From Trueperella pyogenes (lineage in GTDB: Bacteria > Actinomycetota > Actinomycetes > Actinomycetales > Actinomycetaceae), in the NCBI RefSeq assembly GCF_900460345.1, contig NZ_UHHW01000005.1, positions 1 to 11,833 on the forward strand: a stretch of 11,833 bases of DNA, given 5' to 3'. Positions within the stretch are counted from its first letter, which is position 1. Each line of letters starts with the position of its first letter. The translations under genes and the position numbers were made by a program. The notes under the pieces were generated by a model, which saw only the letters and a list, made by a program, of their open reading frames with translations, did not search any database and was not told where the DNA came from. This document shows, one piece after another, positions 1-11,833 of this stretch.

Positions 1-1
1 T

Positions 2-274
2 GCGCATGCGGCACATATCTTAGCAACAGTACTCCCACCGGTAGGCGCCCAGAACCAAGATGAAAACCAGAATCCTAGCGATAGTACAGTACCCAAGGCA
101 CCCCATCCGACGGAAATAACAGATTCACCTGCCACGCTGTCTGCCTCTGATGGGGCAAGTAAATCCAAGGGTTTGCCTGTCACCGGTGTACACATTCTTT
201 CGCTCATGATAGTGACTTTTGGTTTAGGTGCACTTGGGATTCTTGCTTTGCTTCTTCGCCGCGCTCAGCACTGA
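2..274 (+). CDS. LPXTG-anchored surface protein, C-terminal end (left-arm copy)
   Basis: This is the last 90 residues of a cell-wall surface protein, cut by the window edge. A Pro/Ser/Thr/Asp-rich stalk (about residues 12-54) is followed by the sortase signal LPVTG at 172-186, a hydrophobic membrane segment (ILSLMIVTFGLGALGILALLL) and a short RR-containing basic tail before TGA. This is the standard sorting signal by which class A-type sortases attach Gram-positive proteins to peptidoglycan. The right-arm copy has the same translation and extends further upstream, where FG-GAP-like repeats are visible. No rho-independent terminator is obvious directly downstream. Confidence 0.85.
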   Translation, partial: AHAAHILATVLPPVGAQNQDENQNPSDSTVPKAPHPTEITDSPATLSASDGASKSKGLPVTGVHILSLMIVTFGLGALGILALLLRRAQH

Positions 275-482
275 GCCAACACAACTGAATATGCAGTCAA
301 CGTTGAACGAAAACTTTCTGGGAATTGTTTGTCGCAAGGAGTCGTATTGCACAGGTGCACATTACGGTATTAACACCAATATCGTCTGCCTATTGAGATG
401 CCAGTGATAACTTAGCGAGCAGATTGGATACCCAATGGCAAAGCCTATGCACTCGCAGAATCGGGGTGTTTTCCTACACTAA

Positions 483-508
483 GAATCAACCAGCCCTTGG
501 TTGGATTC
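483..508 (+). terminator. Imperfect hairpin downstream of surface-protein gene (left arm)
   Basis: GAATCAACC and GGTTGGATTC form a stem of about 9 pairs with one bulged base around a 7-base loop. It lies about 210 bases after the surface-protein stop and about 140 bases before dxs. There is no T tract on either side, so it is a weak terminator candidate and could equally be a regulatory inverted repeat. The mirrored copy is at 10949-10974. Confidence 0.25.
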
Positions 509-571
509 AGTGCTCCATAAGAAACTTAAGAAAGATCTCTGCCACATCCAGGAGTTAAGACAACATAGCTG

Positions 572-577
572 TTGACA
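572..577 (+). promoter_or_regulatory. Possible -35 hexamer upstream of dxs (left arm)
   Basis: A consensus TTGACA lies about 72 bases upstream of the dxs start. With a 17-base spacer, the matching -10 position reads AACCAA, which is poor. A TAATCT at 621-626 fits the actinobacterial TANNNT pattern but is too far away to pair with it. The hexamer is at 10881-10886 in the right arm. This is a weak candidate only. Confidence 0.2.
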
Positions 578-649
578 CAGCCCTTTCCATAGCGAACCAA
601 GTCATGCTTTCGATCAGTGGTAATCTATGCGTAGTTAAAAGGAGAACCG

Positions 650-2510
650 GTGATTCTTGATTCGATAAATGGCCCGAGGACCTCGCATCACTCAAGGTTA
701 GGGACCTCGAGCAACTGGCGGAAGAAATCCGCCGCTTCCTCGTCGTCAACGTGGCAAAGACGGGCGGGCACCTAGGGCCAAACCTGGGCGTTGTGGAGCT
801 GAGCATTGCGTTACATCGCGTGTTTGATTCGCCCCGCGACACTGATTTGGGACACCGGCCAAAGCCTATGTTCACAAGATTCTCACCGGCCGCAAAGACT
901 TTGCGCGCCTGCGTCAAGAGGGTGGGCTTTCAGGCTACCCCTCGCGCGCGGAGTCGGAGCACGACGTCGTGGAGAACTCACACGCCTCAACTGCCTGTCG
1001 TGGGCCGATGGTATCGCCCGCGGACTGCAGCTTTCTGGCAAAGATAGCTCGGTGGTCGCCATCATTGGCGACGGCGCGATGACTGGCGGCATGGCCTGGG
1101 AGGCGCTGAACAACATAGCTGAGGATCCAGATCGCCCGCTGGTTATCGTCCTCAATGACAATGGCCGCTCGTACGCGCCTACCGTGGGCGGGATCGTGCG
1201 TCGCTTTGACCCGGTGCGCAAACTCGACGCGGTGCGAGTCAACCGGGACTACGAGAACTTCCTCGAATGGGGAAAGCGTACCCTGCAAGGCTCTGGAGTA
1301 CCGGGAAAACTCACGTATGACACGTTGCGCGGCATCAAGAAGGCATGAAGGAGATTTTCTTCGACGCCGGAATCTTCGACTCGCTGGGGCTGAAGTACAT
1401 CGGCCCCGTTGACGGCCACGATATCAAGAGCCTCGAAGAGGCCTTGACGATGGCGCGCGATTACGGTGGTCCCGTCGTCGTGCATGCGATTACAGAAAAA
1501 GGACGCGGGTTCAAGCCAGCCGAGGAGAACAAAGCTGACCGCTTCCACGCGGTAGGTAAGATCCACCCAGAGACCGGGCTTCCGATCGAGCCCTCGCGGT
1601 TCGGATGGACATCTATTTTTGCCGAGGAAATACTGAAGATCGCGCGCAACGATGCCTCGATTGTGGGGTGACGGCGGCGATGTTGCAACCGGTTGGGCTC
1701 TCCCTACTGCGGGAAGAGTTTCCTAAGCGCGTGATCGATGTCGGCATCGCCGAGCAGCACGCGGTCACAATGGCTGCGGGTCTGGCAAAAGCGGGTTTTC
1801 ATCCAGTCATTGCACTGTATGCGACCTTCCTCAACCGTGGCTTTGACCAGCTCTCATGGATGTCGCGCTCCATAACGCGCCTGTGACGATCTGTCTCGAT
1901 CGGGCCGGGTGACGGGCGACGACGGCCCCTCGCACAACGGCATGTGGGATCTGTCAATGGCAGCGATGATCCCCAACCTGCGTGTAGCCGTTCCGCGCGA
2001 CGAGCAGCGCATGCGCGAGCTTCTCAGCCAAGCTACGCAGGTTCAATCGCCTACCCTCGTGCGTTACCCGAAAGGCTCAGTGCTTACGAGATCCCGGCTC
2101 TCCGTTCGATTGGCCAGCTCGACGTCCTCTTTGAGCGTGTGGTCGAGGGGGAGCCCCCGATCGTTCTTGTGGCCGTCGGCCCCATGGCACACGCCGTGAT
2201 TGAGGCAGCGCAGGGACTCGACGGTTCGCTCGTGGCGGTCGACCCACGATGGGTGCTCCCAATTTCAGATCAGCTTGTTGACCTTGCCGCCACCTCGGCA
2301 GGCGTTGTGGTACTCGAAGATGGCCTCGCTACCGGGGGCGTAGGTGACGCGCTGCGCTCTGCCTTGGCAAGGTCCGGATCGTATGTGCCTGTGAAGAGCC
2401 TCGGCATTGACAAGAGATTTCTCCAGCACGCCACGCGCGGGGCGATTCTTCATCGCCAAGCGATGGACGCCGACGCCGTACGCACTGCGGTCTGCCAGCT
2501 GCGCGGCTAG
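650..2510 (+). CDS. dxs: 1-deoxy-D-xylulose-5-phosphate synthase, frame-broken copy (left arm)
   Basis: DXS is a cytoplasmic thiamine-diphosphate enzyme that condenses pyruvate and glyceraldehyde 3-phosphate into DXP, the first step of the MEP isoprenoid pathway. I chose the GTG at 650 because AAAAGGAG lies just upstream and translation gives the family N-terminus ([14 protein letters not shown]). Nine small deletions, near 675, 839, 861, 994, 1340, 1667, 1853, 1907 and 2083, break the frame. Adding back the 11 missing bases, using the right arm, gives 1872 bases and 623 residues, a normal DXS length. In the merged protein I see GHQAYVHK (71-78), the ThDP motif GDGAMTGG (142-149), the catalytic Glu in GIAEQHAV (Glu371, like E. 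coli Glu370) and [15 protein letters not shown] (420-434). The gene converges on the RNase D-like gene, with 15 bases between stops. The breaks look like sequencing errors, not decay. Confidence 0.93.
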
Positions 2511-2522
2511 AGCACAGCTGGC
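2494..2522. terminator. GC-rich hairpin between convergent dxs and RNase D-like gene (left arm)
   Basis: GCCAGCTG (2494-2501) and CAGCTGGC (2515-2522) form a perfect 8-pair stem with a 13-base loop that contains the dxs stop codon. It sits exactly where two convergent genes meet, so it could serve both directions. It has no T tract, so termination is inference. Confidence 0.4.
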
Positions 2523-2525
2523 CGC

Positions 2526-3735
2526 CTATAGGTGCTGTCCGGCCACGGCGTCGTGAATACGATCGCCGACGAGCTCGATTTGCCACGGGCGGGCGCCGTC
2601 GGCGGCAAGGAGGGTGAGGAGCTCGTCGCGTGTGCGCCAGCCTTTCCACGCCGCTAACTTTTGTGTACGCGGCTTGAGCAGGACTTCTTGGACGGATGGC
2701 GAGGCTTTCAGCAATGCCCAGCACAGTTGGGCGCAATAGTTCCCAGCGCTGGCGGCCTGAGGATCCTTACGCGGCCATTCGTTGGTGGGCGGGAACGGAT
2801 CTTTCTTCTCACTAAATTTCCGCTCTGGAAGTGCAGATTCGTCCAGACGCCAGGCGATCTCAATGGCATGCCACCACGTGTTGACATCCCTTTTGCGCGC
2901 TTCGGAGCGGAAGAGGGAAGAATTGACGACGTCGGCTCGCGAGCGCGGCTTGCGCTTGGCCAGTTCCGCAAGAATCTGGTTGGGCAAGATCCTGTGCGGC
3001 GCGATGTCGCGCCGCCTGGCCAGGTCGTCGCGGGCGTTCCACAGCTCGCGCATCATGGCAAGCGCGCGTTGGTCTTTGATTCCGGCTCGACGCGCGGGAC
3101 GGCGCCACGGCTGCTGGCGTGGCGGGGGCGGGCTGGCGCACACGCACCTCCTCGCACTCTTGGACGAACCAAGAAAAACGCTCGGCCTCCAGGAGTTGCG
3201 CGGTGAGCTCGGTGCGCAACTCGTGAAGCAACTCCACATCGAGCGCGGCGTAGGTCAGCAGCGGTAGTGGAAGCGGGCGCTGCGACCAGTCAGAGTTCGA
3301 GTATTCTTTCGCCAGCGACCAGCCGAGCACCTTCTCGCACAGCGCCTGCAACGAGACTCGTTCGTAGCCCAGCAACAGTGCGGCGATCTCGGTGTCGAAC
3401 ACGGTTGTGGGAGTTAACCCCAGCTCACGCAGACACAGGAGATCTTGGTGAGCTGCGTGGACAATCCACTCGCAATTCATCACCTCACGCAGCCCGTCGA
3501 GCCTATCCTCGATGCCCACCGGATCGATGAGGAATGTTCCTACGCCCTCACGGCGGATCTGGAGGAGGTAGGCGCGATTCGTGTAGCGCATCTCGTTGGC
3601 GCGCTCAGTATCGACGGCGAGAGGGCCGGCTCCTGCCGCTAAGCGCGCCACGGCGTCGTCGATATCGTCATGAGTGACTGGGGGCAGCCCGTCGCGAGGT
3701 ATATCGAGGGGACGAGAGGGAATAGACAGGGTCAA
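2526..3735 (-). CDS. RNase D-like 3'-5' exoribonuclease with HRDC region, frame-broken copy (left arm)
   Basis: This is a DEDDy-family exonuclease related to RNase D, expected to trim RNA 3' ends in the cytoplasm. Merging the arms gives 402 residues. The exonuclease domain spans about residues 20-185: VDTE with Asp42 and Glu44, HQDL with Asp98, and YAALD with Tyr162 and Asp166. An Arg/Pro-rich linker (198-217) follows, then an HRDC-like region starting near residue 221. In this copy an extra base in the G run at 3124-3128 breaks the frame in the linker. A deletion near 2751 and an insertion near 2691 leave about 20 residues in the wrong frame. The start is TTG at 3735, overlapping the TGA of the upstream DUF3000 gene, which suggests translational coupling. 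The M. tuberculosis counterpart beside dxs1 is the Rv2681-type protein. Confidence 0.88.
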
Positions 3736-4316
3736 ATCTTTTCCACCTTACGGGCGAGCGTTCTCACCGATTCGTCCCACGGGCCGAGGCCGGTCATCGA
3801 CGCGGCGAACTCCGCCCACGCGTGCAGGTGTTCGGCCAGATAGGGGGTCTGTGGTGTCCACGATGCGCGAAGCTCAAGTTCCACTCGGGACGAATTGAGA
3901 TACAAGCCACCGAACGTTTCATTGAAAACACGCGTGACTGTGCCATTGAGGCTGTGGTAGGAAGCCCGTGCGCCCACAAGGGCATCCACGAGCCAGGACC
4001 ACGCAACTTCACCTAAAAGTGGATCATCGCCCATTTCTGCATCCATTGGTGCTTGGGCATGGATGACAACGCGGAACGTCCCGTTCCACGCGGGCTGCCC
4101 GACCGGATCGTGCAAAACGACGAATTTGGCGTTGCCGCGCAGATGGTCGGGGTCAAGCACAGGGGAGTCGTTGACCTCCACCTGCAAAGCTACTGCCCAC
4201 GGCGCAATTCGGGTGGGGCCGGGAATTTGAGCAACATGCAGTTCGGGGCGAAACTCATGACCCTTGAGAGAATCAAGGGCAGTGATGAACTCCGCTGGCG
4301 GCTGTTGAATGGTCAC
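3732..4316 (-). CDS. DUF3000 family protein, intact copy (left arm)
   Basis: This is a 194-residue soluble protein with no signal peptide or membrane segment. It matches what I know of DUF3000, a family confined to Actinobacteria whose function is unknown. Conserved-looking stretches are FITALDSLKG near the N-terminus, PWAVALQVEV, GDDPLLGEVAWSWLVDAL in the middle and a Trp-rich C-terminal part ending LGPWDESVRTLARKVE. The start is GTG at 4316. I see no good Shine-Dalgarno sequence before it, so the start is moderately certain. It lies 80 bases after the treZ stop, and its TGA overlaps the TTG of the RNase D-like gene. The constant pairing of these two genes suggests linked roles, but no function can be read from the sequence. 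The frame is intact here and broken in the right-arm copy. Confidence 0.88.
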   Translation of the reverse strand: MTIQQPPAEFITALDSLKGHEFRPELHVAQIPGPTRIAPWAVALQVEVNDSPVLDPDHLRGNAKFVVLHDPVGQPAWNGTFRVVIHAQAPMDAEMGDDPLLGEVAWSWLVDALVGARASYHSLNGTVTRVFNETFGGLYLNSSRVELELRASWTPQTPYLAEHLHAWAEFAASMTGLGPWDESVRTLARKVEKI

Positions 4317-4396
4317 ATTCCGACTTTAGCGGCGCCATTAAGCGCATTGGCGGCGGCACGCCGAACTTGTCAGGGGCGTCAGAGTCCGGCGCAGCG

Positions 4397-5730
4397 CTAC
4401 TTGCGGTACACAGCTAACCCCGGCCCGGTGAAACAGACGCCGTCGGCGCTGCGTATGGGGGAGTCCCATGCAAGAACCTCGGTGCCTTCGAACGGCACGG
4501 GCACCACGCGCTCGTCGTCGGCGATAGAAAAGACGACGAACGTCTGCCCGCGCCTCATCCAACCAGCCTTTTCATCTATGTGCAACTCAGTACGGGACCG
4601 ATCTGCGCAAGCGATGTCTGGATCCGATTTTCGCAAGGCGATGAGCGAACGGACAAAATCGTGCATGCGCCGGTGGGAAGCATCGTCCAACTCGTGCCAG
4701 TCCAATTTCGACTCAAGGAAGGTCGTGACATCTTGCGGATTCGGCATGGACACGGCGATGTCGCCGTAGACGGATTCGAAGTCCCATGAGGCAAACTCCG
4801 CTTGCCGTCCCTCCTTGATGAGTGGCCCGAGCTCAGGACCATGATCGGTGAAGTAATGGAAGGGACGGCGCGTTGCCCACTCCTCGCCCATGAACAGCAT
4901 CGGGGTGTAGTGAGAGAGCAAGATCAGCGCGCGGGAGACCGCGAGCTTGGCTGGCGACAACGTAAGTGATGGCCGGTCGGAGATGAGGCGGTTGCCTACC
5001 TGATCGTGATTCTCATCGAAGACCATCAACCTATGCCCACTCACGTGCTCAGGAATCTCCTGTCCACGTGGCGCGGCAGCGAATTGCAGTTGCTGACCTA
5101 CTCGCACGAAGCCATGTTCGAAAGCCTGCCGCATAGTCCCCTCATGGGTGTAGTCCACGTAGTAGGCGTTCTTTTCCCCGGTCAGCCACACGTGCAGGGC
5201 GTGGTGAACGTCGTCAGCCCACTGCATGTCCATCCCGAATCCGCCCTGCGCGGTGGGAATGACCATGGACGGGATGTTGAGGTCGGATTCGGCGGTCAAG
5301 GTTAAAGTCCGCCCCAGCTGCGCGCCGAGTGCGGCCACTTCGTCAGATAGCTCGGATAGGAAGTGGTAGTCGGATTCGTCGTGCAGATGGGGGACGGCGT
5401 CGAGGCGCAAAGCATCGAAGTGGTAGTCGCGTAGCCACTGTTTAGCGTTGTCGATGAGGTAGCGCCGCACATGGGCGGCGTCCTCGCCGTCGAGATTGAG
5501 CGCAGCGCCCCAGGGCGTATGGTGGCGGTCAGTGAAGTAGGGGCCAAATTGGGCAAGGTAATTGCCATCGGGCCCGAAATGGTTGTAGACGACGTCGAGG
5601 CACGCCGACATCCCGCGGGCATGAATACCGTCCACGAGTGCGGCGAGGTCTGCGGGCGTGCCGTAGGGATGGTGAAGGGCGTATATGGACACCCCGTCAT
5701 AGCCCCAGCCGCGTTCGCCCGGCATGCCAG
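4397..5730 (-). CDS. treZ: Malto-oligosyltrehalose trehalohydrolase, 5'-truncated at the turn (left arm)
   Basis: TreZ (a GH13 alpha-amylase family enzyme) releases trehalose from maltooligosyl-trehalose made by TreY. The recognisable protein begins at GMPGERGWGYDG near 5728 and runs about 443 residues to the TAG at 4397-4399. Around 140 N-terminal residues of a typical 560-600 residue TreZ are missing. GH13 signatures appear in order: DVVYNHFGP (region I), LRLDAV with the nucleophile Asp at 5399-5401, LTAESDLN with the acid/base Glu at 5288-5290, and DENHDQVGN with the third Asp at 5003-5005. The TreZ-typical LFMGEEWA follows. RLDAV is followed by PHL rather than the HAI I would expect, in both arms. 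The frame stays open to 5752, but residues beyond 5730 are not TreZ-like. I see no treY in the window. Confidence 0.93.
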
Positions 5731-5833
5731 TACGGCACGCCCCCCGGCACATCCGGCGCTCGGCCGATGCGGACGGCGTCGACGTCTATTGCCATGCCCG
5801 GCGGTGGAAGGTAAGTGGGGGAGGATCGTGGGC
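5621..5833. other. Turn-around of the inverted repeat with degraded treZ copy
   Basis: The centre is GTAC at 5730-5733, flanked by GGCATGCCA on the left and GGCACGCC on the right. One lost T and one T-to-C change would make this a perfect palindrome. On the minus strand, 5621-5728 encodes a good TreZ segment (GMPGERGWGYDG onward). On the plus strand, 5734-5833 should repeat it but is scrambled. A faint trace remains: DGVDVYCHA at about 5770-5800 against DGVSIYALH in the good copy. High identity resumes abruptly at 5834. I read 5734-5833 as an error-rich reading of the same treZ bases after a fold-back turn. An unrelated inserted spacer is the alternative. Confidence 0.6.
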
Positions 5834-7057
5834 GCCCGCGGGATGTCGGCGTGCCTCGACGTCGTCTACAACCATTTCGGGCCCGATGGCAATTACCTTG
5901 CCCAATTTGGCCCCTACTTCACTGACCGCCACCATACGCCCTGGGGCGCTGCGCTCAATCTCGACGGCGAGGACGCCGCCCATGTGCGGCGCTACCTCAT
6001 CGACAACGCTAAACAGTGGCTACGCGACTACCACTTCGATGCTTTGCGCCTCGACGCCGTCCCCCATCTGCACGACGAATCCGACTACCACTTCCTATCC
6101 GAGCTATCTGACGAAGTGGCCGCACTCGGCGCGCAGCTGGGGCGGACTTTAACCTTGACCGCCGAATCCGACCTCAACATCCCGTCCATGGTCATTCCCA
6201 CCGCGCAGGGCGGATTCGGGATGGACATGCAGTGGGCTGACGACGTTCACCACGCCCTGCACGTGTGGCTGACCGGGGAAAAGAACGCCTACTACGTGGA
6301 CTACACCCATGAGGGGACTATGCGGCAGGCTTTCGAACATGGCTTCGTGCGAGTAGGTCAGCAACTGCAATTCGCTGCCGCGCCACGTGGACAGGAGATT
6401 CCTGAGCACGTGAGTGGGCATAGGTTGATGGTCTTCGATGAGAATCACGATCAGGTAGGCAACCGCCTCATCTCCGACCGGCCATCACTTACGTTGTCGC
6501 CAGCCAAGCTCGCGGTCTCCCGCGCGCTGATCTTGCTCTCTCACTACACCCCGATGCTGTTCATGGGCGAGGAGTGGGCAACGCGCCGTCCCTTCCATTA
6601 CTTCACCGATCATGGTCCTGAGCTCGGGCCACTCATCAAGGAGGGACGGCAAGCGGAGTTTGCCTCATGGGACTTCGAATCCGTCTACGGCGACATCGCC
6701 GTGTCCATGCCGAATCCGCAAGATGTCACGACCTTCCTTGAGTCGAAATTGGACTGGCACGAGTTGGACGATGCTTCCCACCGGCGCATGCACGATTTTG
6801 TCCGTTCGCTCATCGCCTTGCGAAAATCGGATCCAGACATCGCTTGCGCAGATCGGTCCCGTACTGAGTTGCACATAGATGAAAAGGCTGGTTGGATGAG
6901 GCGCGGGCAGACGTTCGTCGTCTTTTCTATCGCCGACGACGAGCGCGTGGTGCCCGTGCCGTTCGAAGGCACCGAGGTTCTTGCATGGGACTCCCCCATA
7001 CGCAGCGCCGACGGCGTCTGTTTCACCGGGCCGGGGTTAGCTGTGTACCGCAAGTAG
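5834..7057 (+). CDS. treZ: Malto-oligosyltrehalose trehalohydrolase, 5'-truncated (right-arm copy)
   Basis: This 407-codon fragment translates identically to the left-arm copy from ARGMSACLDVVYNH to the TAG at 7055-7057. GH13 residues are in place: region I DVVYNH at 5858-5875, nucleophile Asp at 6053-6055, acid/base Glu at 6164-6166 and the third Asp at 6449-6451. The frame happens to be open upstream through the turn to 5471, producing a fused product of more than 500 residues whose first part is antisense to treZ. That fusion is spurious. The real gene body is recognisable only from 5834, with a corrupted trace back to about 5734. Confidence 0.92.
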   Translation, partial: ARGMSACLDVVYNHFGPDGNYLAQFGPYFTDRHHTPWGAALNLDGEDAAHVRRYLIDNAKQWLRDYHFDALRLDAVPHLHDESDYHFLSELSDEVAALGAQLGRTLTLTAESDLNIPSMVIPTAQGGFGMDMQWADDVHHALHVWLTGEKNAYYVDYTHEGTMRQAFEHGFVRVGQQLQFAAAPRGQEIPEHVSGHRLMVFDENHDQVGNRLISDRPSLTLSPAKLAVSRALILLSHYTPMLFMGEEWATRRPFHYFTDHGPELGPLIKEGRQAEFASWDFESVYGDIAVSMPNPQDVTTFLESKLDWHELDDASHRRMHDFVRSLIALRKSDPDIACADRSRTELHIDEKAGWMRRGQTFVVFSIADDERVVPVPFEGTEVLAWDSPIRSADGVCFTGPGLAVYRK

Positions 7058-7137
7058 CGCTGCGCCGGACTCTGACGCCCCTGACAAGTTCGGCGTGCCG
7101 CCGCCAATGCGCTTAATGGCGCCGCTAAAGTCGGAAT

Positions 7138-7721
7138 GTGACCATTCAACAGCCGCCAGCGGAGTTCATCACTGCCCTTGATTCTCTCAAGGGTCATGAG
7201 TTTCGCCCCGAACTGCATGTTGCTCAAATTCCCGGCCCCACCCGAATTGCGCCGTGGGCAGTAGCTTTGCAGGTGGAGGTCAACGACTCCCTGTGCTTGA
7301 CCCCGACCATCTGCGCGGCAACGCCAAATTCGTCGTTTTGCACGATCCGGTCGGGCAGCCCGCGTGGAACGGGACGTTCCGCGTTGTCATCCATGCCCAA
7401 GCACCAATGGATGCAGAAATGGGCGATGATCCACTTTTAGGTGAAGTTGCGTGGTCCTGGCTCGTGGATGCCCTTGTGGGCGCACGGGCTTCCTACCACA
7501 GCCTCAATGGCACAGTCACGCGTGTTTTCAATGAAACGTTCGGTGGCTTGTATCTCAATTCGTCCCGAGTGGAACTTGAGCTTCGCGCATCGTGGACACC
7601 ACAGACCCCCTATCTGGCCGAACACCTGCACGCGTGGGCGGAGTTCGCCGCGTCGATGACCGGCCTCGGCCCGTGGGACGAATCGGTGAGAACGCTCGCC
7701 CGTAAGGTGGAAAAGATTTGA
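7138..7721 (+). CDS. DUF3000 family protein, frame-broken copy (right arm)
   Basis: This is the same gene as the intact 194-residue copy in the left arm. Here a C is missing from a run of four near 7289-7291. After VEVNDS the GTG-initiated frame goes wrong and ends early at 7440. The correct frame resumes from that point to the TGA at 7719-7721. Function is unknown and the family is actinobacterial. The stop overlaps the TTG start of the RNase D-like gene at 7718. Confidence 0.86.
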
Positions 7722-8924
7722 CCCTGTCTATTCCCTCTCGTCCCCTCGATATACCTCGCGACGGGCTGCCCCCAGTCACTCATGACGATATCGACGACGC
7801 CGTGGCGCGCTTAGCGGCAGGAGCCGGCCCTCTCGCCGTCGATACTGAGCGCGCCAACGAGATGCGCTACACGAATCGCGCCTACCTCCTCCAGATCCGC
7901 CGTGAGGGCGTAGGAACATTCCTCATCGATCCGGTGGGCATCGAGGATAGGCTCGACGGGCTGCGTGAGGTGATGAATTGCGAGTGGATTGTCCACGCAG
8001 CTCACCAAGATCTCCTGTGTCTGCGTGAGCTGGGGTTAACTCCCACAACCGTGTTCGACACCGAGATCGCCGCACTGTTGCTGGGCTACGAACGAGTCTC
8101 GTTGCAGGCGCTGTGCGAGAAGGTGCTCGGCTGGTCGCTGGCGAAAGAATACTCGAACTCTGACTGGTCGCAGCGCCCGCTTCCACTACCGCTGCTGACC
8201 TACGCCGCGCTCGATGTGGAGTTGCTTCACGAGTTGCGCACCGAGCTCACCGCGCAACTCCTGGAGGCGAGCGTTTTTCTTGGTTCGTCCAAGAGTGCGA
8301 GGAGGTGCGTGTGCGCCAGCCCGCCCCGCCACGCCAGCAGCCGTGGCGCCGTCCCGCGCGTCGAGCCGGAATCAAAGACCAACGCGCGCTTGCCATGATG
8401 CGCGAGCTGTGGAACGCCCGCGACGACCTGGCCAGGCGGCGCGACATCGCGCCGCACAGGATCTTGCCCAACCAGATTCTTGCGGAACTGGCCAAGCGCA
8501 AGCCGCGCTCGCGAGCCGACGTCGTCAATTCTTCCCTCTTCCGCTCCGAAGCGCGCAAAAGGGATGTCAACACGTGGTGGCATGCCATTGAGATCGCCTG
8601 GCGTCTGGACGAATCTGCACTTCCAGAGCGGAAATTTAGTGAGAGAAAGATCCGTTCCCGCCCACCAACGAATGGCCGCGTAAGGATCCTCAGGCCGCCC
8701 AGCGCTGGGAACTATTGCGCCCAACTGTGCTGGGCATTGCTGAAAGCCTCGCCATCCGTCAAGAAGTCCTGCTCAAGCCGCGTACACAAAAGTTAGCGGC
8801 GTGGAAAGGCTGGCGCACACGCGACGAGCTCCTCACCCTCCTTGCCGCCGACGGCGCCCGCCCGTGGCAAATCGAGCTCGTCGGCGATCGTATTCACGAC
8901 GCCGTGGCCGGACAGCACCTATAG
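7718..8924 (+). CDS. RNase D-like 3'-5' exoribonuclease with HRDC region, frame-broken copy (right arm)
   Basis: This is the second copy of the DEDDy exonuclease. The exonuclease domain is intact from the TTG at 7718, with Asp42, Glu44, Asp98, Tyr162 and Asp166 all readable. A missing C near 8270 (GAGGCGAG for GAGGCCGAG) breaks the frame just after the domain. A missing A near 8645 breaks it again in the C-terminal part. Unlike the left copy, the linker RVRQPAPPRQQPW and the stretch AAQRWELLRPTVLGIAESLAIRQ are correct here, so each arm repairs the other. The gene ends with TAG at 8922-8924, 15 bases from the dxs stop. Confidence 0.87.
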
Positions 8925-8927
8925 GCG

Positions 8928-8956
8928 GCCAGCTGTGCTCTAGCCGCGCAGCTGGC
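8928..8956. terminator. GC-rich hairpin between convergent genes (right arm)
   Basis: This is the mirror copy of the 2494-2522 hairpin: GCCAGCTG at 8928-8935 and CAGCTGGC at 8949-8956, an 8-pair perfect stem with a 13-base loop over the dxs stop codon. There is no T tract. A bidirectional terminator is plausible from position only. Confidence 0.4.
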
Positions 8957-10808
8957 AGACCGCAGTGCGTACGGCGTCGGCGTCCATCGCTTGGCGATGA
9001 AGAATCGCCCCCGCGCGTGGCGTGCTGGAGAAATCTCTTGTCAATGCGAGGCTCTTCACAGGCACATACGATCCGGACCTTGCCAAGGCAGAGCGCAGCG
9101 CGTCACTACGCCCCCGGTAGCGAGGCCATCTTCGAGTACCACAACGCCTGCCGAGGTGGCGGCAAGGTCAACAAGCTGATCTGAAATTGGGAGCACCCAT
9201 CGTGGGTCGACCGCCACGAGCGAACCGTCGAGTCCCTGCGCTGCCTCAATCACGGCGTGTGCCATGGGGCGACGGCCACAAGAACGATCGGGGGCTCCCC
9301 CTCGACCACACGCTCAAAGAGGACGTCGAGCTGGCCAATCGAACGGAGAGCCGGGATCTCGTAAGGCACTGAGCCTTTCGGGTAACGCACGAGGGTAGGC
9401 GATTGAACCTGCGTAGCTTGGCTGAGAAGCTCGCGCATGCGCTGCTCGTCGCGCGGAACGGCTACACGCAGGTTGGGGATCATCGCTGCCATTGACAGAT
9501 CCCACATGCCGTTGTGCGAGGGGCCGTCGTCGCCCGTCACCCCGGCCCGATCGAGACAGATCGTCACAGGCGCGTTATGGAGCGCGACATCCATGAGGAG
9601 CTGGTCAAAGCCACGGTTGAGGAAGGTCGCATACAGTGCAATGACTGGATGAAAACCCGCTTTTGCCAGACCCGCAGCCATTGTGACCGCGTGCTGCTCG
9701 GCGATGCCGACATCGATCACGCGCTTAGGAAACTCTTCCCGCAGTAGGGAGAGCCCAACCGGTTGCAACATCGCCGCCGTCACCCCCCACAATCGAGGCA
9801 TCGTTGCGCGCGATCTTCAGTATTTCCTCGGCAAAAATAGATGTCCATCCGAACCGCGAGGGCTCGATCGGAAGCCCGGTCTCTGGGTGGATCTTACCTA
9901 CCGCGTGGAAGCGGTCAGCTTTGTTCTCCTCGGCTGGCTTGAACCCGCGTCCCTTTTTCTGTAATCGCATGCACGACGACGGGACCACCGTAATCGCGCG
10001 CCATCGTCAAGGCCTCTTCGAGCTCTTGATATCGTGGCCGTCAACGGGGCCGATGTACTTCAGCCCCAGCGAGTCGAAGGATTCCGGCGTCGAAGAAAAT
10101 CTCCTTCATGCCTTTCTTGATGCCGCGCAACGTGTCATACGTGAGTTTTCCCGGTACTCCCAAGCCTTGCAGGGTACGCTTTCCCCATTGAGGAAGTTCT
10201 CGTAGTCCGGTTGACTCGCACCGCGTCGAGTTTGCGCACCGGGTCAAAGCGACGCCACGATCCGCCCACGGTAGGCGCGTACGAGCGGCCATTGTCATTG
10301 AGGACGATAACCAGCGGGCGATCTGGATCCTCAGCTATGTTGTTCAGCGCCTCCCAGGCCATGCCGCCAGTCATCGCGCCGTCGCCAATGATGGCGACCA
10401 CCGAGCTATCTTTGCCAGAAAGCTGCAGTCCGCGGCGATACCATCGGCCCACGACAGGGCAGTTGAGGCGTGTGAGTTCTCCACGACGTCGTGCTCCGAC
10501 TCCGCGCGCGAGGGGTAGCCTGAAAGCCCACCCTCTTGACGCAGGCGCGCAAAGTCTTTGCGGCCGGTGAGAATCTTGTGAACATAGGCTTGGTGGCCGG
10601 TGTCCCAAATCAGCGGTTCGCGGGGCGAATCAAACACGCGATGTAACGGCAATGCTCAGCTCCACAACGCCCAGGTTTGGCCCTAGTGCCCGCCCGTCTT
10701 TGCCACGTTGACGACGAGGAAGCGGCGGATTTCTTCCGCCAGTTGCTCGAGGTCCCTAACCTTGAGTGATGCGAGGTCCTCGGGGCCATTTATCGAATCA
10801 AGAATCAC
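8940..10808 (-). CDS. dxs: 1-deoxy-D-xylulose-5-phosphate synthase, frame-broken copy (right arm)
   Basis: This is the second copy of dxs, starting at GTG 10806-10808 after AAAAGGAG (plus-strand CTCCTTTT at 10814-10821) and ending at TAG 8940-8942. It is 1869 bases, 3 short of the merged 1872. It keeps several bases lost in the left arm: [53 protein letters not shown] and GSVPYEIP all read correctly here. It has its own indels, for example near 10687, 10649, 10434, 10262, 10245, 10190, 10093, 10027, 9953, 9275 and 9105. The G run at 9783-9788 has 6 bases where the frame needs 5 and the left arm has 4. Role and motifs are as for the left copy. Confidence 0.93.
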
Positions 10809-11183
10809 CGGTTCTCCTTTTAACTACGCATAGATTACCACTGATCGAAAGCATGACTTGGTTCGCTATGGAAAGGGCTGTGTCAACAGCTATGTTGTCT
10901 TAACTCCTGGATGTGGCAGAGATCTTTCTTAAGTTTCTTATGAGCACTGAATCCAACCAAGGGCTGGTTGATTCTTAGTGTAGGAAAACACCCCGATTCT
11001 GCGAGTGCATAGGCTTTGCCATTGGGTATCCAATCTGCTCGCTAAGTTATCACTGGGCATCTCAATAGGCAGACGATATTGGTGTTAATACCGTAATGTG
11101 CACCTGTGCAATACGACTCCTTGCGACAAACAATTCCCAGAAAGTTTTCGTTCAACGTTGACTGCATATTCAGTTGTGTTGGC
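10809..11183. other. Intergenic region between dxs and surface-protein gene (right arm)
   Basis: This is the mirror copy of 275-649. No gene is visible. It contains the dxs ribosome-binding site (10814-10821 on the plus strand), TGTCAA at 10881-10886 (TTGACA in dxs direction), the imperfect hairpin at 10949-10974 and the palindrome TCAACGTTGA at 11152-11161. Confidence 0.7.
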
Positions 11184-11833
11184 TCAGTGCTGAGCGCGGC
11201 GAAGAAGCAAAGCAAGAATCCCAAGTGCACCTAAACCAAAAGTCACTATCATGAGCGAAAGAATGTGTACACCGGTGACAGGCAAACCCTTGGATTTACT
11301 TGCCCCATCAGAGGCAGACAGCGTGGCAGGTGAATCTGTTATTTCCGTCGGATGGGGTGCCTTGGGTACTGTACTATCGCTAGGATTCTGGTTTTCATCT
11401 TGGTTCTGGGCGCCTACCGGTGGGAGTACTGTTGCTAAGATATGTGCCGCATGCGCATATCCTTCAGTGTCAGTGAGGGCTTCATCAATCACGCCATCAC
11501 GCCTATCGCAACAGTTGGTTTCCCTAGGTAATTGCCTACGAACGCCACTGATCTGCCAAAGCGAGACTTTTGCGCCTTGCCCTGGATAATCACGGTATTT
11601 GGCATATCTGCAATAGAGGTAACGCCGATCGGAATCTGTGCAATGCGCACCACATGTGCAACGCCTCCGTTGCCTTCACCCCAGGCACCTATTACTGCCA
11701 AACCATCGGAGGCATCGATAGCCCAGCCAAATCCATCTCCTGTATTGTTTCCAGTCAAAACGCGAATTCCATCACTTAGCTGCTGGGCATCAAGACTAAT
11801 CTGGCGTTCTTTGACCTGTTCTCTAGTTCCGTA
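11184..11833 (-). CDS. FG-GAP repeat surface protein with LPVTG sorting signal, 5'-partial, one frameshift
   Basis: This is the C-terminal part of a cell-wall-anchored surface protein; it is open at the window edge. The upstream part (11833 to about 11500) reads GIRVLTGNNTGDGFGWAIDA, then LAVIGAWGEGNGG, and later SRFGRSVAFVGNYLGKPTVAIG. These are two FG-GAP-like units of the beta-propeller repeat type known from integrin alpha chains and bacterial surface proteins. The frame then stops at 11489. One missing base near 11500 (restoring IGADGVIDEALTDTEG) joins it to the second frame, which carries a Pro/Ser/Thr-rich stalk, LPVTG, a hydrophobic helix and an RR-containing tail, ending at 11184. 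I infer sortase anchoring and an extracellular propeller. The ligand is unknown. The frameshift lies outside the mirrored region, so the window itself cannot confirm it. Confidence 0.82.

Follow-up and report, generated by a model that had tools for sequence, protein, structure and literature searches.

Contig NZ_UHHW01000005.1 (C5) of the Trueperella pyogenes assembly GCF_900460345.1 is very probably (about 0.88) an assembled fold-back artefact of sequencing rather than a real biological feature. The window analysed here is the whole of this contig, 11,833 bp, in an assembly of 2,310,711 bases in five contigs. The region exists as a single copy in the main contig (C2), four contigs share this build, their turns lie near the midpoint, the centres of three are deletion-rich, and genes in the arms are broken. 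The preliminary description, made from the letters alone, had favoured a fold-back chimera and given a real palindromic amplicon a much lower chance. The single copy in C2, the fold-back form of all three other small contigs, the midpoint turns in all four and the deletion-rich centre bear out the first of these views; the four separate loci, the central turns and the uninterrupted C2 bear out the second. The relevance is to data quality only, and nothing new is learned about the bacterium.

Structure of the contig and its chromosomal counterpart

A BLAST comparison of the window with its own reverse complement reveals one long self-match, 1-5620 against 11457-5834, spanning 5639 columns at 99.34% identity (3 mismatches, 31 gap openings); the remaining self-matches are 13-21 nt only. 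A repeat finder breaks the same arms into ungapped blocks. The two largest, both at 100%, measure 1458 and 980 nt, and in the best 25 of 30 pairs the paired coordinates sum to 11448 to 11458, close to the 11450-11458 first described. The inverted repeat first described is confirmed, with arms at 1-5620 and 5834-11457 (99.3%), though not its extension over the full window: the window is all of C5, so the suggested check of whether the palindrome spans the entire contig returns a 376-nt right tail (11458-11833) that is unpaired and outside it. The centre, described earlier as near-spacerless, holds 213 nt between the arms, of which 5621-5726 are left-arm chromosome and 5727-5833 appear to be a garbled chromosomal re-read.

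Placed on C2, the first arm (1..5726, minus strand) corresponds to C2:1134931-1129195, minus strand, with 99.7% identity, 0 mismatches and 13 gap openings; within it, 5621-5726 extend the left arm mismatch-free along C2:1129300-1129195, minus strand. The turn region (5727..5833) follows, a probable deletion-rich re-read of approximately C2:1129088-1129229, plus strand, with no recognisable adapter. The paired part of the second arm (5834..11457, plus strand), the reverse complement of 1-5620, takes up the chromosome from C2:1129301, plus strand, and the unpaired tail (11458..11833, plus strand) is collinear with C2 and extends the arm to C2:1135308. Together, 5834-11833 match C2:1129301-1135308, plus strand, at 99.6% identity with 20 gap openings and 4 mismatches. 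A real chromosomal duplication should have unique sequence past both arms. C5 has none: it starts inside an arm, and its only extra sequence is the 376 nt on the right, a continuation of the normal locus.

In C2 (2,269,745 bases) the C5 region is present once and uninterrupted, and the point of the turn sits within a 583-aa open frame of the alpha-amylase family. The 1-deoxyxylulose-5-phosphate synthase gene, dxs, is a single 623-aa frame in C2 (PF13292 on that copy, E 5.6e-105) and is broken into shorter, frameshifted ORFs in both C5 arms, at 650..2510 (plus strand) and 8943..10808 (minus strand; the lower bound is approximate, mirrored from the first arm). A gene for an RNase D-like exonuclease (402 aa in C2; PF01612, PF00570) is likewise frameshifted at 2526..3735 (minus strand) and 7718..8930 (plus strand; end approximate, mirrored). 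The DUF3000 gene (PF11452 on the C2 copy) is open at 3732..4316 (minus strand), with 194 aa as in C2, and at 7138..7721 (plus strand) is frameshifted into 100-aa and 155-aa ORFs. Since neither arm has an intact dxs or RNase D-like gene and the second also lacks an intact DUF3000 gene, the arms of C5 are poorer copies of the chromosome.

At the turn, the first-arm alpha-amylase-family gene (4397..5752, minus strand; PF00128) has lost its 5' part, leaving 451 aa of the 583 in C2, with its first residues encoded by the garbled centre. A 528-aa ORF across the turn (5471..7057, plus strand) joins the second-arm copy to garbled and antisense sequence, a chance fusion. At the outer ends lies the 3' part of an FG-GAP repeat gene (PF01839; 1088 aa in C2). 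In the second arm (11184..11833, minus strand) it is frameshifted and cut by the contig end, forming two ORFs (11184-11492 and 11489-11833); in the first arm its 3' end (1..274, plus strand) is a 90-aa open-ended ORF.

Other small contigs and the sequence at their turns

The remaining small contigs, C1 (7,786 bp), C3 (10,338 bp) and C4 (11,009 bp), are palindromes built like C5. Fold-back palindromes thus make up four of the four small contigs, and C2 is the only other contig in the assembly. Both arms of each match a single C2 locus, four scattered loci in all: 1719-1723 kb for C1, 161-166 kb for C3, 1559-1565 kb for C4 and about 1.129 Mb for C5. The four artefact contigs account for 40,966 of the 2,310,711 bases (1.8%), and their duplicated, indel-bearing genes could pass for gene duplications, palindromic plasmids or contamination.

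The turns, placed at the middle between clean arm ends, are offset from the contig midpoints by 1.2% (C1), 1.5% (C3), 2.6% (C4) and 2.3% (C5) of the half-length. The product of these four fractions, 1.1e-7, is the chance that four uniformly placed turns would fall so near. A sheared real palindrome would turn anywhere; a fragment read on both strands in succession does so at its centre. The excerpted text of a study of nanopore fold-back reads takes a near-midpoint turn as the mark of artefacts against real events, with a 10% margin (PMC12870357), and all four contigs turn within it. The same excerpts look for a return to the same place on the opposite strand within 200 bp (PMC12870357), as occurs in C5 (C2:1129195/1129301, 106 bp). 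The clean arm ends of C1 and C3 lie 7 and 179 bp apart on C2, and those of C4 289 bp apart, above that limit. A further mark in that study is that other reads run across the place with no breakpoint (PMC12870357); as a stand-in for such reads, C2 passes through it uninterrupted.

Centre lengths range from 62 to 268 nt across the four contigs, with 107 nt in C5 and 62 nt in C1. C5 5727-5833 aligns locally to C2:1129088-1129229, plus strand, scoring 67 where the best of 300 shuffles reaches 56; the alignment comprises 88 matches and 1 mismatch, lacks 53 of the 142 template bases and has 5 additional ones. Taken in full, the C3 and C4 centres likewise reach plus-strand local-alignment scores equalled by 0 of 300 shuffles; the sub-stretches picked after that result have 49 bases missing and 1 extra in C3, and 38 missing and 6 extra in C4. 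The missing fraction of template bases in the aligned centres is 37% in C5, 26% in C3 and 26% in C4. Shuffled centres are far less one-sided than the real ones, with mean missing and extra bases of 19.6/13.8 for C5, 32.9/21.6 for C3 and 20.1/16.4 for C4. BLAST puts parts of the C4 and C3 centres at the same place on C2 (E 9e-10 and 6e-6), and the C4 part is recovered there in a whole-genome BLAST as well. The likeliest account of C5 5727-5833 is thus a second, deletion-rich reading of adjacent chromosomal sequence.

Other comparisons of the centres stay at background. The minus strands of the C5, C3 and C4 centres align locally at shuffle level, and the 62-nt C1 centre has no nearby match above shuffles on either strand (72 and 284 of 300 as high). 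A symmetric global model with zero spacer, run with 100 shuffles each and, in the two longer centres, on one turn position in five, beat its shuffles for C3 only (73.5 against a maximum of 50.5), with scores of 7.5 for C5 (shuffle mean 9.8), 38.5 for C4 (maximum 43.5) and 6.5 for C1 (maximum 10.5). Four adapter sequences, SMRTbell among them, were not detected in any of the four centres, at least 58 of 300 shuffles scoring as high in each case; the retained hairpin adapter that the preliminary description offered as one variant of the chimera is accordingly left unsupported. Snap-back at a short inverted repeat was rejected as well, the five points considered (two for C5) being ordinary, with 29-99% of background windows as high.

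Under one global alignment scoring, the eight arms differ from C2 by 144 deletions, 25 insertions and 3 substitutions, 172 in total, and the 4 mismatches that BLAST reports for the second arm of C5 become indels. Only 1 of the 172 differences, in C3, is common to both arms of a contig. For 66 of the 172 the neighbour is a homopolymer of at least 3; as a rough yardstick, 21% of positions in a single C2 stretch have such a neighbour. The two arms of C3 have 24 of 30 and 14 of 24 differences within 1 kb of the turn and those of C4 have 5 of 10 and 36 of 45, compared with 0 of 13 and 0 of 24 in C5 and 3 of 9 and 0 of 17 in C1. Of the C5 arm errors, 9 of 13 and 19 of 24 fall 3-5 kb away from the turn, at window positions 650-2800 and 8700-10840.

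Proposed origin and competing explanations

A chromosomal fragment of about C2:1129.1-1135.3 kb would have been read on one strand and then, unbroken, on the complement. For each locus the assembler may have retained this joined read, or a few of the kind, in a contig of its own. Ordinary reads would then have corrected the arms and left the centre uncorrected, presumably because no ordinary read aligns there. A nanopore library is the likeliest source; the complement would there follow the template as one molecule or as an unsplit read. Past the pore, the second strand may re-pair with the first, move faster and lose calls after the turn.

Published reads offer partial precedents. According to the excerpted text of PMC12870357, fold-back artefacts make up about 0.55-0.6% of nanopore genomic reads, and more than 11 bp lie between the halves in typically fewer than half of the artefact reads; two example reads are almost perfectly palindromic, one of them without sequence between the halves, and library preparation is where the authors place the likely origin. 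The contigs here resemble those reads in their near-perfect palindromes, near-midpoint turns, return to the same place on the opposite strand and absence of a detected adapter. They differ in that the artefact persists in an assembly as separate contigs and is known from contigs alone.

Inverted duplicates, in the portion of PMC7229812 cited here, move through the nanopore more quickly once past the junction, where raised current, low base qualities and wrong or missed bases are the signature; re-pairing of the arms is the proposed cause. Missed bases directly past the junction occur in C5, C3 and C4 as well, so that base loss at the turn is common to both data sets (PMC7229812). The poor stretch there comes close to the length of the preceding arm (PMC7229812), and here it measures 62-268 nt, presumably with the rest polished. 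Eight direct-cDNA reads inspected in the excerpts of PMC12870357 had no notable signal difference at the break, which argues against the ratchet as a general mark of fold-backs. The build described in PMC12870357 and the missed bases described in PMC7229812 are both present here, and the two papers, as excerpted, disagree on altered signal. The phrase "palindromic contigs in bacterial assemblies" is absent among the matches listed in a literature search.

Several features sit poorly with a fold-back artefact. The first strand of C5 lacks about 107 nt ahead of the turn (C2:1129088-1129195), a loss that the ratchet leaves unexplained. The second arm of C5 extends 377 nt beyond the first at the outer end. 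Clustering of arm errors close to the turn is seen for C3 and C4 and is absent from C5 and C1. Trimming and uneven polishing could have caused these misfits (the 107 nt, the 377 nt and the clustering of errors) as well as the 289 bp of C4.

Palindromes might instead have formed during whole-genome amplification, when a strand-displacing polymerase copies back its own strand, and then have been sequenced faithfully. Such palindromes are common after amplification, at 45.8% of reads in a plant set and 11.8% in a gorilla set in the portion of the study cited (PMC6218980), and self-copying would likewise yield symmetric arms. The contigs here share with them (PMC6218980) long inverted copies of single-copy DNA that are harmful to assemblies, but differ in that there are only four; the sample bears no sign either way of having been amplified. 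The main contig is one 2.27-Mb piece beside those four, the deletion-rich centres would require an additional reading effect, and self-copying cannot give the 377-nt longer second arm of C5 unless the first arm was trimmed. On balance, amplification, which the preliminary description also offered as a variant, is an improbable source and one that the observations do not require.

Less probable still is a PacBio read with a missed SMRTbell adapter, although missed or missing adapters do yield palindromic reads, as the excerpted text of PMC6218980 describes. In all four centres the SMRTbell sequence does no better than shuffles. PacBio continuous reads are insertion-rich, whereas the differences here are mostly deletions (144 of 172). 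In addition, three PacBio samples had no systemic fold-backs in the excerpts of PMC12870357.

Real palindromic DNA in the cells, as an inverted amplicon or a hairpin-ended linear molecule from the C5 locus, is hardly credible: C2 is uninterrupted, arm genes are broken by indels, the turns lie near the midpoint in all four contigs, and inverted-repeat scores at the turns are ordinary. In-vivo inverted duplications do exist. Hairpin-capped extrachromosomal DNA is named in PMC10766183, and on C2 about 75-81 kb separate the C5 locus from the point opposite dnaA, but the three other contigs come from loci far from that point. It is no more believable that cells of this strain hold hairpin-closed linear chromosome fragments from scattered breaks, of which the four contigs would be reads.

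With a fold-back artefact as the preferred reading, the combination of a small contig, a midpoint palindrome, a single copy in the main contig and a deletion-rich centre could flag similar contigs elsewhere.

The locus in its genome and in relatives

dnaA lies at C2:2.189 Mb, placing the C5 locus roughly opposite the origin. Sites resembling the parS motif occur near dnaA at C2 2.194 Mb. A terminus-linked palindrome was rejected, since the other three loci do not lie opposite the origin.

A 5.5-kb stretch of the C2 locus is matched in 38 of 39 genomes, the strain's own genome being included in the 39. Among the eight other genomes of the genus, four (G005-G008) have one long match of 5.3-5.4 kb, accompanied in G006 and G008 by a further 30-base hit. 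The stretch falls into two contig pieces in G003 and into shorter pieces on one strand in G001, G002 and G004. No inverted second copy appears in the match listing for these eight genomes.

Among the matches listed for dxs, from which the window's own genome may be left out, the highest identities are 68% in Arcanobacterium bovis and 66% in an Ancrocorticia MAG. The 1088-aa FG-GAP protein (L006:8659-11925, minus strand) has an LPVTG-like C-terminal end and is perhaps a wall-anchored surface protein.
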